64,000 nucleotides of DNA from NCBI GenBank assembly GCA_946406035.1, contig CAMJJG010000006.1, positions 1-64,000 of the forward strand, given 5' to 3'. Below the pieces are notes generated by a model, which saw only the letters and a program-made list of their open reading frames with translations, ran no database searches and was not told the origin of the DNA. This stretch comes from an uncultured Prevotellaceae bacterium. GTDB lineage: Bacteria; Bacteroidota; Bacteroidia; Bacteroidales; Muribaculaceae. Below are positions 10,806 to 17,283 of the stretch, in pieces. Position 1 is the stretch's first letter; the number at the start of each line of letters is the position of its first letter. Made by a program: the position numbers and the translations under genes.

Positions 10806-12221
10806 ATGAACCGTTTATTGCCCATAGTGACCTTGTTGCTGCTGGTGCTGGTGGCCATGGCCTGCCGTCGCGAGACCGTGAATTATCCTCCTCAAGCGCG
10901 AGTGACGCTCACCTCGACCAACCTGCCCATTGTGTGGATTGAGGTAAAGGGGCGCGTCATCAGCCGTGAAGAACGCATCGAGGCGCGCATCAAGGTCATT
11001 GATAATGGCAAGGGGCGCTTGAACTATGCCGACACCGTGCGCCACCCGGGGCAGCGTGTCGATTACGAGGGTTATGTGGCCCTGCGTTATCGCGGCAACT
11101 CGTCGCTGAACGTGAGCCCCAAGAAGCCTTACTCCTTCCGCACGCTTGATGGTCCCATGAAGTGGGCGACAAAGAAAAAGGCCAAGATTCTGGGCATGGG
11201 CAAGGACGACAACTGGGCCCTGCTGGCACCCTACAGCGACAAGAGCATGATCAGGGACCTGCTGGCATTTGAGATTTCCCGCCCGTGGATGGAATATGTG
11301 CCTCAAGGCCGTTTTTGTGAGGTTTTCCTTGATGGCACCTACTATGGGGTGTATATCCTGTGCGAGGTGGTATCCAAGGGGAAGCACCGCTTGAATCTGG
11401 CCAAACCTGGCAAGTCGGGCGACGCCTTAACGGGCGATTACCTGATTGAGGTGGACTATGATGATGACGTGCACTACCGGAGCAAGCATCACCCCCTGGA
11501 TGGTAATGGCAACGAGTTGATCGACAGGTTTATCCACATCCAGTTCAAGTCGCCCGATCATGACGAGATGAAGGAGCAGCACATTCATTACATCACCCAG
11601 CACATCGATCAGATGGAGGCTGCACTCGCCGCTCCCTGGTATCAAGATCCCGTCAAGGGCTACAGGAAGTATATCGATGTGATGTCGTTTATCGATTACC
11701 AGATTGCCCAGGAACTGGCTCATAACATCGACGCCTATCGCAAGAGCTGCAAACTCTACAAGCGCCGTGACAGCGTCGATGGGCGTTTCAAGGCAGTGGT
11801 GTGGGACATGAATCTGGCTTATGGCAACTGCAAGTTGAACGGCTCCTGGCGGACCGACACCTGGGCCTACCAGAACAACGACTCGCTCTATAGCAGTGGC
11901 GAGGACTATCTGGTGCCCTTCTGGTGGCCTCGACTCAACAGCGACGAGGCCTACACGGCGATGCTGCGCGACCGATGGGCGCAATACCGCCGTTACAACC
12001 TGGAGGAGGGGCGGCTCATGGCGGTGATCGACTCGATGGCGACGGTGTTGACCAGCCATGGCGCGATAGACCGTGACAGCCAGGCATGGCCCCACTGGGG
12101 AGTGTACGTCTGGTGCAACTACTATGTCTCTAAGGATTTTGCCGACGAGATCGCCTACCTCAAGCGTTGGCTCAGGGAGCGTATCGCCTGGATGGATGAA
12201 CAGTTGAAATTGGATAATTAA
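10806..12221 (+). CDS. CotH-family (kinase-like) lipoprotein
   Basis: Surface or periplasmic lipoprotein with lipobox VAMAC (Cys about 20) and a CotH domain. CotH proteins have a protein-kinase-like fold and in Bacillus phosphorylate spore-coat proteins; the role in Bacteroidetes is not settled. Family hallmarks are the RYRGNSS motif (about 97-103), KKPYSFR, GMGKDDNWALLAPYSDKSMIRD (about 136-157) and the late VVWDMNLAYGN (about 336-346), where the Asp would bind metal. The length of 471 is usual. It lies between a broken gene and a dockerin-like mini-protein gene; many Bacteroidetes CotH proteins occur with extracellular modules, so a link is possible. Confidence 0.85.
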   Translation: MNRLLPIVTLLLLVLVAMACRRETVNYPPQARVTLTSTNLPIVWIEVKGRVISREERIEARIKVIDNGKGRLNYADTVRHPGQRVDYEGYVALRYRGNSSLNVSPKKPYSFRTLDGPMKWATKKKAKILGMGKDDNWALLAPYSDKSMIRDLLAFEISRPWMEYVPQGRFCEVFLDGTYYGVYILCEVVSKGKHRLNLAKPGKSGDALTGDYLIEVDYDDDVHYRSKHHPLDGNGNELIDRFIHIQFKSPDHDEMKEQHIHYITQHIDQMEAALAAPWYQDPVKGYRKYIDVMSFIDYQIAQELAHNIDAYRKSCKLYKRRDSVDGRFKAVVWDMNLAYGNCKLNGSWRTDTWAYQNNDSLYSSGEDYLVPFWWPRLNSDEAYTAMLRDRWAQYRRYNLEEGRLMAVIDSMATVLTSHGAIDRDSQAWPHWGVYVWCNYYVSKDFADEIAYLKRWLRERIAWMDEQLKLDN

Positions 12222-12573: not shown

Positions 12574-12981
12574 TCAATAGGTCATGCGGGGAGGAAGTTC
12601 CTTGGCCTGATCGATCATGCGTTGAATTTCGGCCTCGGCAGGCACACGGCCACACAGGTGTTTCTCGTCGTTGACCTCGACCAGCTTGGCGGCAAGGTTG
12701 GCGGCAACGCGATGGCGCAGCTCCTTGACCGTGTCGACACCAGCAGCCTCGAGCAACTCGGCGAACTGCGGGCCGATGCCGTTGATGCGGAACAGGTCGG
12801 CGTGATTGGTCCACGTGAGAATCAGCTTCTCGCTAATTCCCGTCTTCTGGGCAAGGGCTTTGCGTCCTGCGGGAGTGTCACAGGCATCAAGCAGTTGCTC
12901 AACGGTCTCAATGCCCTCGGCAATCAATTTGGGCGCATAGGCCTTACCAATGCCCTCGATGTCAATAATCTTGTAGTTCAT
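12574..12981 (-). CDS. DUF4332 (helix-hairpin-helix) protein
   Basis: A 135-residue cytosolic protein made of two helix-hairpin-helix-like segments: IEGIGKAYAPKLIAEGIETV (near the N-terminus) and INGIGPQFAELLEAAGVDTV (about 66-85). This is the pattern of DUF4332, related to the HhH of DNA polymerases and ribosomal S13-type folds, so nucleic-acid binding is likely but unproven. It follows the aquaporin gene by 45 bases on the same strand and is probably co-transcribed. I know no reason linking the two functions. Confidence 0.8.
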   Translation of the reverse strand: MNYKIIDIEGIGKAYAPKLIAEGIETVEQLLDACDTPAGRKALAQKTGISEKLILTWTNHADLFRINGIGPQFAELLEAAGVDTVKELRHRVAANLAAKLVEVNDEKHLCGRVPAEAEIQRMIDQAKELPPRMTY

Positions 12982-13026: not shown

Positions 13027-13719
13027 TTACTCCTCAACTTTCTTGTCGCAGTTGCAGTCGATGATCTTCCAGATGCATGCTGCCAGAGCGCCGCCAACAA
13101 ACGGGCCGACGATAAAGATCCACAGGTTGGCCAGTGCGGTGCCGCCCTGGAAGATGGCGGGAGCGATCGAGCGGGCGGGATTGACCGATGTGCCCGTGTA
13201 GCGGATGCAGACGAGGTGAACAAGTACCAGCGACAGACCGATGGCCAGTCCAGCAAAGTTGTTGGTGGCGCCATTGGTCTTGGCAGTTGCGCCCAGTACA
13301 ACGAGGACAAAGACGCAGGTAAAGATGATCTCGGCCAGCAGTCCGCCCATTACCGAGACGCCCTCTTGCAGGTCGTTGGCACCAGTGCCGTCCATCCCCA
13401 TCACGTTAGAGGTGAGCAGGTAAAGCAAAGCCGAGCCGATGAAGGCGCCGATCACCTGGAAAATCATGTACATGCCGCAATCCTTAGCGCTCATGCGACC
13501 GCTCAGGAAGCAGCCCAGAGTGATGGCGGGGTTGATGTGGCAGCCGCTGATGCCGCCGATGGTGTAGGCCATAGCCACTACAGCCAGTCCAAAAGCCAAT
13601 GCTGTGCCGACAACCGCGGGGATGTTGGTGATGGGGTTGCACCCAAGACTCACTGCGACGCCACAGCCCATGAGTACCAAGACCATCGTGCCGACCATTT
13701 CTGCTAAATACTTTTTCAT
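13027..13719 (-). CDS. aqpZ: Aquaporin / MIP-family channel
   Basis: Inner-membrane channel of 230 residues with six hydrophobic helices and both half-helix NPA motifs: GCHINPAITLG (about 59-69) and GTSVNPARSIAP (about 176-187). The residue two before the second NPA and the short loops favour the water-selective AqpZ group over glycerol facilitators (inference). The C-terminus is lysine/cysteine-rich (DCNCDKKVEE). It is transcribed divergently from the ugd-like gene, with its own -33/-7 promoter. Confidence 0.92.
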   Translation of the reverse strand: MKKYLAEMVGTMVLVLMGCGVAVSLGCNPITNIPAVVGTALAFGLAVVAMAYTIGGISGCHINPAITLGCFLSGRMSAKDCGMYMIFQVIGAFIGSALLYLLTSNVMGMDGTGANDLQEGVSVMGGLLAEIIFTCVFVLVVLGATAKTNGATNNFAGLAIGLSLVLVHLVCIRYTGTSVNPARSIAPAIFQGGTALANLWIFIVGPFVGGALAACIWKIIDCNCDKKVEE

Positions 13720-13848: not shown

Positions 13849-13856
13849 TATATTTG
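13849..13856 (+). promoter_or_regulatory. -7 box for the Ugd-like gene
   Basis: TATATTTG, 48 bases before the ATG. The -33 element is weak. Confidence 0.55.
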
Positions 13857-13904: not shown

Positions 13905-15221
13905 ATGAATATATCGATAGTAGGAACAGGATATGTGGGTCTGGTGAGCGGCACGTGCTTTGCCGACCTGGGTGTTAACGTGACATGCGTTGACCGTGAT
14001 AGCCAGAAGATCAACCGCCTGGTCTATGGTGCCATCCCCATCTATGAGCCTGGACTTGATAACATGATCAACCGCAACGTCAGCGACAAGCGGTTGACCT
14101 TCTCGAGCGATTACAGACAGGGATTTGTGGATCGGGATTTTGTCTTCTGTGCCATCGACACCACTGCTGACGAGGATGGCTTGACCGACCTGGGGCCGAT
14201 CCTGGATATCGCCAAGGATTTTGCCGACAACATCACCCGATACAGCGTGTTTGTCATCAAGTCGACTGTTCCCGTGGGCACGACTCAGCATGTGGCCAAA
14301 ATCATCGGCGAAGCCCTTGAGGCAAGGGGCGCCGGTGATATCAAGTTTGATGTGGCCTGCAATCCCGACTTCTTGACCGAGGGCAATGGCATCAAGGACT
14401 TCATGAAGCCCGACCGCATTGTCATCGGCACCGAGACGACCACAGCCCGGCAGGCCATGGAGCGACTGTATCGCACGATCCTGATGCACAATAACCGGAC
14501 GGTGATCTATACCGACACGCGTACTGCCGAGATGATCAAATATGCCGCCACGTCGATGCTGGCGACCCGTGTGAGCTTCATGAACGAGATTGCCAACTTG
14601 TGCGAGATTGTCGGGGCCGACGTGAACGTTGTTAGGCACGGTGTGGGCACTGATAGCCGCATCGGGCCCAAATACATCTTCCCTGGCTGTGGCTATGGCG
14701 GCACGCTCTTCCCCCAGGACATCAATGATTTGATCAAGATAGGCAGCGAGCACAACCATGACATGGAGATACTCAAAGCGGTGGAGAATGTAAACAACCG
14801 CCAGAAACGCATCCTGTTCAAGAAACTTAACAACCACTTCAAGGGAGACCTTGAGGGCAAGACGGTTGCCCTGTGGGGCTTGAGTTTCAAGCCCGAGACC
14901 GATGACATGACCGCCGCACCATCCATCGACACCATCAACCTGCTGATGGAGGCCGGCTGCCATGTGCGGGTGTATGACCCGGTAGCCATGAATGCCACCA
15001 AGCGCCGCTGGAGCACAGTGTATTGCGGCTTGGACATGTATGACGCCGTGAAGGGTGCCGATGCCGTGCTGCTGCTCACCGAGTGGCGCCAGTTCCGCAT
15101 CCCGGCATGGCAGGTTGTCAAGAACTTGATGAACTCACCTGTCGTGATCGATGGTCGCAACGTGTATGACGGCGATGAGCTTGAGGAGATGGGCTTCTCT
15201 TACTACTGCATCGGCCGATAA
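13905..15221 (+). CDS. UDP-glucose 6-dehydrogenase-like protein with an altered active site
   Basis: The fold is that of nucleotide-sugar dehydrogenases. It has an N-terminal Rossmann motif GTGYVGL, KSTVPVGTT (about 115-123), a central helix with EMIKYAATSMLATRVSFMNE (about 206-225) and a C-terminal UDP-binding domain with LWGLSFKPETDDM. UDP-glucose dehydrogenases oxidise twice through a thioester on a cysteine in GYGGSCFPKD. Here the stretch is GYGGTLFPQD (264-272): the cysteine is Leu268 and the lysine is Gln271. The usual KYAAN asparagine is Thr, and NPEF is NPDF. The fold and substrate domains look intact, so full UGDH activity is doubtful. No capsule genes are nearby. The length (438) is normal. 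Confidence 0.85.
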   Translation: MNISIVGTGYVGLVSGTCFADLGVNVTCVDRDSQKINRLVYGAIPIYEPGLDNMINRNVSDKRLTFSSDYRQGFVDRDFVFCAIDTTADEDGLTDLGPILDIAKDFADNITRYSVFVIKSTVPVGTTQHVAKIIGEALEARGAGDIKFDVACNPDFLTEGNGIKDFMKPDRIVIGTETTTARQAMERLYRTILMHNNRTVIYTDTRTAEMIKYAATSMLATRVSFMNEIANLCEIVGADVNVVRHGVGTDSRIGPKYIFPGCGYGGTLFPQDINDLIKIGSEHNHDMEILKAVENVNNRQKRILFKKLNNHFKGDLEGKTVALWGLSFKPETDDMTAAPSIDTINLLMEAGCHVRVYDPVAMNATKRRWSTVYCGLDMYDAVKGADAVLLLTEWRQFRIPAWQVVKNLMNSPVVIDGRNVYDGDELEEMGFSYYCIGR

Positions 15222-15251: not shown

Positions 15252-15285
15252 AAAAAAAGCCGCCTCCTTTGCGAGGCGGTTTTTT
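15252..15285. terminator. Bidirectional terminator between ugd-like and porE-like genes
   Basis: AAAAGCCGCCTC pairs with GAGGCGGTTTTTT, giving about 12 bp with one G-T, and A/T tracts suit both strands. Confidence 0.85.
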
Positions 15286-15291
15286 AAGTTT

Positions 15292-17283
15292 TTAGTACTG
15301 GTACTCGGTGTCGATGACCTCAAACTCGGTGCGGCGGTTGATTTGGTCGGCCGCTTGCTGATCCTCCTTGCTCAGCTTCTTGATGAACTCCTCGGTGAGC
15401 GTCACGCCTTCCTCAAACTGTGGGTACTGGCTGTGGATGCGCTTGGTTACCGTCTTGGGTCGCGACTCGCCGTAGCCAGCGGGACGCAGCCGCTCCTTGG
15501 GGATGCCGTTCTCGATGAGGTAGTCCACCACACTCTGGGCTCGACGCTGCGAGAGCCCCTGGTTGTACTTGGCGCTGCCCACGCGGTCGGTGTGGGAGGC
15601 CATCTCGATGACGATGTTGGGATGGTCCTTGAGGAGCATCACCATGCTGTCAAGGGCGAGTTTGGACTCGTCGCGCAGGACAGCCTTGTCAAAATCATAG
15701 AAGATATTCTCGATAATCTGGGCCTTGAACATGGCGGCCAAGATAAAGTCCACGTTATACTCGGCATCCTCCTCGGTGCTGTCGCTCTCAAACTCCTGGC
15801 GGGCGTTCAAGTATCCATCGGCACTGGCTTGCATGGCATATTTCACGCCCCTCTGCAGGTCAAAGCGGAAGGAACCGTCGGGCTTGGCGGCGGTCTTCTG
15901 GTTGCTGCCGTCGTCACCCACGATGCGGATGACGGCATTGGGTACGGGCTCATCGTCCTTATCGACGACATAGCCCGAGATCCAAATCTGCAAATCGGGC
16001 TTGATGAAGCTGAAGATGTGGTCATAGCCACGGGCATCGCCACGGTTGCTCGAGAACAGTCCGCTCTCGCCCTGGCCGAAGGTGAGCCCAAAGTCGTCGG
16101 CCGCGGAATTCATCGGCACGCCCATGTTCTCGATCACCCAGCGGTCCATCGACACGTTGTCGCCCTCTTCGCGGGGCTGCAAGGTGGCTCTGAACAAGTC
16201 CAGACCGCCCATGCCGGGATGGCCGTCGCTCGAGAAGTACAGGAGGCTGTCGGTGCGCATGTTGGGGCAGCGCTCGTTGCCCTTGGTGTTGATCTGCATG
16301 CCCAGGTTCTCGAGTGTGCCGTGCTTGTCCTTGAGGTTGATGCGCCAGATGTCGGTGCCTCCTTGTCCGCCGGGCATGTCGCTGGCGAAGTATAACCATT
16401 GCCCGTCGGGGCTGACAAAGGGGTCAGAATAGTTGCTCAGCGTGTCGGCAGTGATCTCAAACTTCTGTGGAGCGCCCCACTTGGCCTCGCTGCGGCTGCT
16501 GGTATAGATTTCAACGTTGGTGGGCCAGTCCTGCCGCACGGCGCGGGCCAGATACATTGTCGAGCCGTCGGGCGAGAATGCTGCGGCGCCCTCGTCATGC
16601 TCGGTGTTCAAGCCTCCGTCCACAATCTCGGGGCGTGACCACTTGCCGTTCTCGTCCTTCTTCATGAAGTAGATGTCCCCCTTCTTGGTGCCCAGGATCT
16701 CGCTGCGCAACTCGCCAGTTGATTTCTCGTTGGTCGAGGTGAAGTACAGGTACTCCATGTTTTTGTCGAGGTACATCGGGCAGTAGTCGGCGCGGCGGGA
16801 GCCGTAGAATGGCTTGACGATATATCGCGAGCCCTCCTCTTTCAACTGGGGTGCCAACTCGCATCCGCGCAGGCCCACCATCGCCTCCCAACTGCCGGGA
16901 GCGATTTCCAGGTACTGGTTATAGCTGCTGATGGCTGCAGCATACTGACCCTCGCGTTGTTGGGCCTGGGCCAGGCGCAACAGCAGGGTGGTGTCCTCAT
17001 ACTCGTAGCGGATGGCATTCTGGAAAGCAGCCGCGGCGCGGTTGCCCTGGTTGAGTTTCAGGTGGCACATGCCCAACTGGAATGCCAGTTCGCCACGCAA
17101 CCAGGCGTCCTCCTTGCGGTTGTAGCGGTTATAGAGCTTGCGGTAGATGGCCGCCGCATCAAAGTACTCGCCGCGGTCATAGGCCTCGTCAGCATCCTTG
17201 AGTTTGGGTCCCTTGCAAGATGTCATCGACAGCGTCATCGATGCCACCATCAGTCCCACAACGATAAATAGAATCCGTTTCAT
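15292..17283 (-). CDS. PorE-like OmpA-family lipoprotein
   Basis: Lipoprotein (SMTSC, Cys about 23) with four modules in order. These are TPR repeats (about 30-130) and a PD40 beta-propeller (about 155-430, e.g. FSPDGSTMYLAR, VSPDGQWLYFAS, YFSSDGHPGMGG). A carboxypeptidase-regulatory-like domain follows (about 440-520, PNAVIRIVGDDG) and an OmpA peptidoglycan-binding domain (about 540-655, SHTDRVGSAKYNQGLSQRRA). This order and the 663-residue length match PorE of Porphyromonas gingivalis, which anchors the type IX secretion system to peptidoglycan. Whether this genome has T9SS cannot be seen here; other TPR-PD40-OmpA proteins exist. Confidence 0.75.
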   Translation of the reverse strand: MKRILFIVVGLMVASMTLSMTSCKGPKLKDADEAYDRGEYFDAAAIYRKLYNRYNRKEDAWLRGELAFQLGMCHLKLNQGNRAAAAFQNAIRYEYEDTTLLLRLAQAQQREGQYAAAISSYNQYLEIAPGSWEAMVGLRGCELAPQLKEEGSRYIVKPFYGSRRADYCPMYLDKNMEYLYFTSTNEKSTGELRSEILGTKKGDIYFMKKDENGKWSRPEIVDGGLNTEHDEGAAAFSPDGSTMYLARAVRQDWPTNVEIYTSSRSEAKWGAPQKFEITADTLSNYSDPFVSPDGQWLYFASDMPGGQGGTDIWRINLKDKHGTLENLGMQINTKGNERCPNMRTDSLLYFSSDGHPGMGGLDLFRATLQPREEGDNVSMDRWVIENMGVPMNSAADDFGLTFGQGESGLFSSNRGDARGYDHIFSFIKPDLQIWISGYVVDKDDEPVPNAVIRIVGDDGSNQKTAAKPDGSFRFDLQRGVKYAMQASADGYLNARQEFESDSTEEDAEYNVDFILAAMFKAQIIENIFYDFDKAVLRDESKLALDSMVMLLKDHPNIVIEMASHTDRVGSAKYNQGLSQRRAQSVVDYLIENGIPKERLRPAGYGESRPKTVTKRIHSQYPQFEEGVTLTEEFIKKLSKEDQQAADQINRRTEFEVIDTEYQY

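Follow-up and report, generated by a model that had tools for sequence, protein, structure and literature searches.

The window, which is the whole 64,000-nucleotide stretch of DNA that was analysed, encodes a homologue of UDP-glucose dehydrogenase (UGDH) that lacks the catalytic cysteine of the family and belongs to a clade of intact sequences, here termed L-type, in which this loss is shared by 59 of 60 members. In a survey of 229 NDP-sugar dehydrogenases, 18 residues were found to be invariant, with the catalytic Cys, Asn and Glu among them (PMC4794789). These three are gone from the window protein (E155D, N216T and C268L, corresponding to Glu141, Asn208 and Cys260 in S. pyogenes numbering, hereafter Sp), and the others are kept, including Lys204, Asp264, Thr118 and Lys320. 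A natural, selected clade without these residues offers a test of which residues are truly required for the first oxidation. The open-licence papers searched contained no account of a UGDH that naturally lacks the Cys. The window protein may best be explained as a UDP-sugar-binding pseudo-dehydrogenase and not as a maker of UDP-glucuronate, because Cys, Asn and Glu are lost and NAD+ contacts have been lost repeatedly, with the examined UDP-sugar residues remaining constant. We hold this explanation tentatively, at somewhat less than an even chance.

13905–15221, + strand: gene of the Cys-less UGDH homologue (L-type), 438 aa, with an ATG start, recognised from its Pfam domains, PDB match and AlphaFold2 model

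All three UDPG_MGDP_dh Pfam domains (PF03721, PF00984 and PF03720) are complete in the window protein, which scored 404.8 bits against TIGR03026 (cut-off, 189.8). Its best PDB match was P. gingivalis UGDH (3gg2; approximately 51% identity, with 49–52% to the individual chains of this entry). The AlphaFold2 model built from 55 sequences had a pLDDT of 93.9 and a TM of 0.93–0.97 to 3gg2, with a superposition of 1.0–1.4 Å; an earlier model from 12 sequences was poor (pLDDT 71). The protein is therefore a member of the NDP-sugar dehydrogenase superfamily by sequence and fold. Scores for the NCBIfam equivalogs TuaD (458.5 of 700) and AglM (346.9 of 670) fell below the cut-offs, which is not diagnostic because a canonical paralogue likewise fails TuaD (553). 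This paralogue (L002; G000:C32:6365–7681) was found when the same genome was checked for a second, canonical ugd, as the original prediction had proposed. It lies on another contig, has the same length as the window protein, is 55% identical to it and carries intact catalytic residues in the canonical motifs GYGGSCFPKD, NPEF and KYAAN.

Residues were counted in 60 distinct members of the clade and in 126 canonical homologues. The codons of the positions concerned with catalysis are as follows.

14706–14708, + strand: Leu268, at the position of the thioester Cys (Sp Cys260, human Cys276); Leu in 59/60 clade members, Cys in 126/126 canonical homologues
14550–14552, + strand: Thr216, at the position of the Asn contacting the C6 oxygen (Sp Asn208, human Asn224); Thr in 60/60, Asn in 126/126
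14367–14369, + strand: Asp155, at the position of the invariant Glu (Sp Glu141, human Glu161); Asp in 60/60, Glu in 126/126
14538–14540, + strand: Lys212 (Sp Lys204), kept in 60/60
14718–14720, + strand: Asp272 (Sp Asp264, general base), kept in 60/60

The reading frame and the alignment agreed with the earlier assignment of Leu268, Gln271, Thr216 (in KYAAT) and Asp155 (in NPDF). The motif GYGGTLFPQD is also present, but it spans residues 263–272 and not 264–272 as first given. The view that the family normally needs the missing Cys was supported, and the proposed alignment placed Leu268 as a conserved feature of a fully supported clade, in which a single member carries Cys at this position. 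A lone variant or an assembly error was rejected on the same count. The window protein has neither the GG.C signature of the thioester nor the Asn and Glu (Sp N208 and E141) expected of a UDP-glucose 6-dehydrogenase, and judged by these defining residues, it is not a member of that enzyme group. The thioester route as known is ruled out by the loss of the Cys. We infer from the replaced residues that the net four-electron oxidation has been lost, and L-type proteins probably no longer make glucuronic acid.

Other cysteines were considered as replacements. Cys262 (in PGCGYGG) was rejected because canonical proteins carry it too (66/126). Cys82 and Cys374 are mostly confined to the clade, but they are predicted to sit in a Rossmann strand and in the UDP domain, respectively, outside the catalytic loop.

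The pair associated with the first oxidation (Sp Lys204 and Asp264) is present throughout the clade as Lys212 and Asp272, and Thr121 (Sp Thr118) is retained in 59 of the 60 members. That Lys212 and Asp272 never change is the strongest argument against a pseudo-dehydrogenase, and it keeps alive the main rival, which we nevertheless consider unlikely. This is a two-electron enzyme that would oxidise C6 of UDP-glucose to the 6-aldehyde, or catalyse the reverse reduction. It would stop at the aldehyde, because no thioester is possible, and hand the product to another enzyme. The conserved Thr121 and the Leu219 typical of the UDP-glucose group suit such an enzyme, and the changes on the clade stem include residues of the covalent and hydrolytic steps, Cys and Glu. 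On the other side, the NAD+ contacts are eroding, and no aldehyde-consuming partner gene was linked at the loci examined. Moreover, unless the product is trapped, NAD+-linked oxidation of an alcohol to an aldehyde is thermodynamically unfavourable. The missing Asn (Sp Asn208) has itself been assigned to the first oxidation step (PMC4794789). As for the covalent steps, the human UGDH E161Q mutant is described in the title of PDB entry 3khu as trapped as a thiohemiacetal, and a Cys-to-Ala UGDH, as cited in PMC3184952, oxidises added aldehyde without completing the reaction from UDP-glucose.

Further replacements were found on the side that binds NAD+; of these, Thr336 and the changed TP motif are absent from the original prediction. 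In Sp, Arg327 forms a salt bridge with the NAD+ pyrophosphate and Lys263 contacts the nicotinamide ribose (PMC4794789).

14715–14717, + strand: Gln271, at the position of the Lys touching the nicotinamide ribose (Sp Lys263); Gln in 51/60, Lys in 126/126
14910–14912, + strand: Thr336, at the position of the Arg salt-bridging the NAD+ pyrophosphate (Sp Arg327); Thr or Ser in 48/60, Arg in 126/126
14163–14165, + strand: Thr87, at the Pro position of the TP motif beside Thr86 (Sp Thr83); Pro kept in 9/60, compared with 126/126

Thr336 of the window protein lies in DDMTAAPS, and the TP motif reads TT. Thr86 is gone in seven and Ser120 in six of the 60 members, each being present in 126/126 canonical homologues. 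The window protein retains GxGxxG, Asp30 (Sp Asp29, adenosine ribose) and Thr86, so the claim that the Rossmann motif and the UDP domain are kept stood for GxGxxG and the UDP-sugar contacts; it was incomplete for the NAD+ contacts, of which those at 336, 271 and 87, and in some members Thr86, are lost. All UDP-sugar-side residues examined (K329, R252, G265, G266, L219 and E159) are unchanged in 60/60; L219, R252 and K329 correspond to Sp Leu211, the intersubunit Arg244 and Lys320. Among columns conserved in the canonical group, 25 of 59 in the NAD domain vary within the clade, compared with 14 of 62 in the other two domains (Fisher p 0.03).

Three outcomes had been offered for the missing Cys: a stop at the aldehyde, action on another sugar or a non-catalytic protein. 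Since NAD+ contacts are lost (two of them repeatedly) and the examined UDP-sugar contacts are constant, weight shifts toward a protein that is non-catalytic or is not a normal NAD+ enzyme. Another sugar is weakened by Leu219, kept in 60/60, because Leu at this position (Sp Leu211) marks the UDP-glucose group as opposed to GDP-mannose and UDP-ManNAc enzymes (PMC4794789). This bears on an altered reaction, in which tightly bound NAD would serve redox-neutral chemistry or the substrate would be another UDP-sugar. At approximately 20 positions, the clade has a nearly fixed residue that differs from the canonical group, and several of these positions lie within or close to the active-site loop (D85, T94, Y257, T267, L268, I273 and D275). 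This pattern resembles re-tuning rather than drift; the Rossmann core and Asp30 are also retained. Retention of Leu219 and Arg252 argues against a new substrate, however, and the variability of R336 and T86 within the clade fits poorly with a tightly bound cofactor. We regard an altered reaction as distinctly unlikely.

The gene itself was described earlier as intact, with a full-length frame and a promoter, and this description held. The median dN/dS among 34 close clade members was 0.056, and the L-type gene is under strong purifying selection. Signals for transcription were located on both sides of the gene.

13849–13856, + strand: Bacteroidota-type -7 promoter element TATATTTG, 56 nt upstream of the gene, conserved as a block when close relatives are aligned
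15254–15285, + strand: intrinsic terminator 3' of the gene with a 13-bp stem, usable on either strand

TAnnTTTG was present at most 210 nt upstream of the ATG in all 26 clade genes checked, at 30–74 nt in 24 of them. The terminator is strong, would serve either strand and is thus common to the convergent gene downstream, which encodes a PorE family type IX secretion protein (15292–17283, - strand; NF052230, 866 bits against 600). A decaying or mis-assembled ugd copy, to which the loss of several catalytic residues might have pointed, is scarcely conceivable and was rejected in view of 60 distinct intact sequences, the dN/dS value, and the promoter and terminator.

The 60 clade members are 61–93% identical to the window protein and were found in a single genus of gut and rumen Bacteroidales. 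Support for the clade is 100% and its stem is long (0.53). It groups with canonical UGDHs from the family's other genera, not with the canonical copy of its own genus; the L-type may therefore be the native UGDH lineage of the genus. Motif scans of 396 genomes of the phylum and 297 of the family gave no homologous match outside the genus, and the homologues inspected from other genera (39 from the family and 73 named loci) were all canonical. One relative of the clade that carries the Cys, like L051 (see below), is found at G037:C140:1406–4710 (L062) and contains an in-frame TAA.

The Cys-less type is near-universal among 101 genomes of the genus. Among the 48 of high quality (at least 90% complete), 47 carry it, when copies are sorted by identity to the window protein (at least 61% for L-type and at most 56% for canonical): 26 show no canonical UGDH, 21 have both and one has the canonical copy only. 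Roughly half of the high-quality genomes thus have no close UGDH homologue other than the L-type, and 24 of the 26 L-type-only genomes were read to the residue. In one genome, G095 (98% complete), it is the only NDP-sugar dehydrogenase found. A heteromer dependent on the canonical paralogue is unlikely, because no such copy was shown in 26 of the 48 genomes and G095 holds no other NDP-sugar dehydrogenase. The same 26 genomes would suit a Cys-independent, full four-electron UGDH that would oxidise the aldehyde in its hydrated form and supply the genus with its own UDP-glucuronate. This explanation is improbable, yet not to be dismissed, because the Cys-to-Ala mutant cited in PMC3184952 does oxidise aldehyde. 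Arguing against it are the absence of three invariant residues, the loss of several NAD+ contacts and the canonical copy also kept in 21 of the 48 genomes. For UDP-xylose synthase, a consumer of UDP-glucuronate, 49 genomes of the genus gave no good match (best approximately 30% identity), a result that carries no information on demand for UDP-glucuronate.

The residues appear to have been lost in an order that can be read in outline, with intermediates that suggest a graded series. L051 (genome G078) has D155 and T216 with the Cys, Lys, Arg and TP still intact. In the FPKD subclade, Leu268 is present, Lys271 and TP are retained, and Arg336 is kept in all but one member. In the FPQD subclade, which includes the window protein, Lys271 and the Pro of TP are gone and Arg336 is mostly gone. 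On a tree built without the columns in question, positions 155, 216, 271 and 87 required one change each, R336 five and T86 three, indicating that the last two contacts were lost repeatedly. L051 is a long branch whose placement differs between the two trees, and three histories are therefore compatible: the Cys was lost once after L051 split off, was lost twice or was regained in L051.

A pseudo-dehydrogenase could have arisen along this series as follows. An ordinary UGDH would have retained its fold and UDP-hexose pocket. Glu and Asn, which sit toward C6, would have been lost on the clade stem and the thioester Cys would have gone as well; the contacts to the NAD+ pyrophosphate and ribose would have followed in the subclade of the window protein. 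The present protein would bind UDP-glucose, perhaps with NAD(H) weakly held, and act through its conformation or a binding partner as a UDP-sugar sensor or regulator. A pseudoenzyme would be expected to keep its ligand pocket, lose its catalytic residues and stay under selection; here, the pocket residues are kept and the gene is under selection, but Lys212 and Asp272 are still present. It is also not obvious why a pure sensor should need GxGxxG and Asp30, and nine of the 60 members retain both Lys271 and TP.

Both a sensing function and an output to osmotic state or the envelope are speculative. In favour of the pseudo-dehydrogenase, the gene stands alone, outside any glycan or polysaccharide cluster, and has a divergent neighbour.

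13027–13719, - strand: aquaporin gene (MIP, AqpZ-like), linked to the L-type gene in a large part of the clade

In the subclade of the window protein and in several related subclades, the aquaporin and L-type genes diverge over approximately 185 bp, and in most of the FPKD subclade, the L-type gene is divergent from glpA-glpB. This tie is one of gene order alone, and at several loci (L038, L041, L043–L045 and L047), neither aquaporin nor glpAB adjoins the gene. The fullest version of the pseudo-dehydrogenase explanation, namely that the genus converted the UGDH native to it into a protein dedicated to sensing UDP-sugars and tied to water and envelope homeostasis through the divergent aquaporin or glycerol-3-phosphate dehydrogenase (glpAB), that the chemistry was lost in a readable order and that many species dropped canonical UDP-glucuronate synthesis, is rather unlikely as a whole.

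Compared with UDP-glucose 6-dehydrogenases (EC 1.1.1.22; P. gingivalis 3gg2, B. cepacia BceC 2y0e and human UGDH), the window protein shares the three domains, UDP-sugar contacts, Lys212, Asp272, Tyr10 and GxGxxG, and it differs in having Leu for Cys, Thr for Asn, Asp for Glu, Thr and Gln for the Arg and Lys that contact NAD+, and TT for TP. The WecC/WbpA-type UDP-HexNAc dehydrogenases of the genus belong to the same superfamily (TIGR03026), but their Cys is intact (GVGGHC, GLGGHC or LVGGHC) and they score approximately 110–180 bits to the UGDH profile. The metabolic proteins OpgH, UgtP and OtsA have been reported to couple UDP-glucose-linked metabolism to cell form (PMC3723540, PMC5889556, PMC5685639). 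Precedents for regulators among such proteins include OpgH (PMC3723540) and OtsA, the latter in osmotic sensing (PMC5685639). These proteins are glycosyltransferases, and any likeness to the window protein would lie in the proposed role alone. The L-type may define a new UDP-sugar-binding regulator, and the annotation "UDP-glucose 6-dehydrogenase" in these gut and rumen bacteria need not imply UDP-glucuronate.

The canonical paralogue L002 has as neighbours a Wzc-type kinase and a cluster resembling inositol-phosphate synthase, and not an aquaporin. Canonical ugd genes of the genus (L261 on G000:C32, L263, L264, L269 and L271) lie beside a tyrosine kinase of the Wzc type. Also nearby are genes similar to those for myo-inositol-1-phosphate synthase, a nucleotidyltransferase, a HAD phosphatase and PdxA, surroundings that look like an inositol-lipid cluster when genes are named by sequence resemblance. 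FPKD loci with divergent glpA and glpB include L253, L255–L257 and L260, and at L253 the NCBIfam scores for GlpA (820.7 bits) and GlpB (386.0 bits) were above the cut-off. At L003–L031, the aquaporin at the same site is either 93–98% or 68–72% identical to the window copy, the adjoining UGDH homologue being 90–93% identical throughout; two aquaporin versions seem to have been exchanged at one locus. A DUF4332 helix-hairpin-helix protein gene (12574–12981, - strand) adjoins the aquaporin gene in many close relatives, and a CotH-kinase-like protein (PF08757) is encoded at 10806–12221 (+ strand) of the window.
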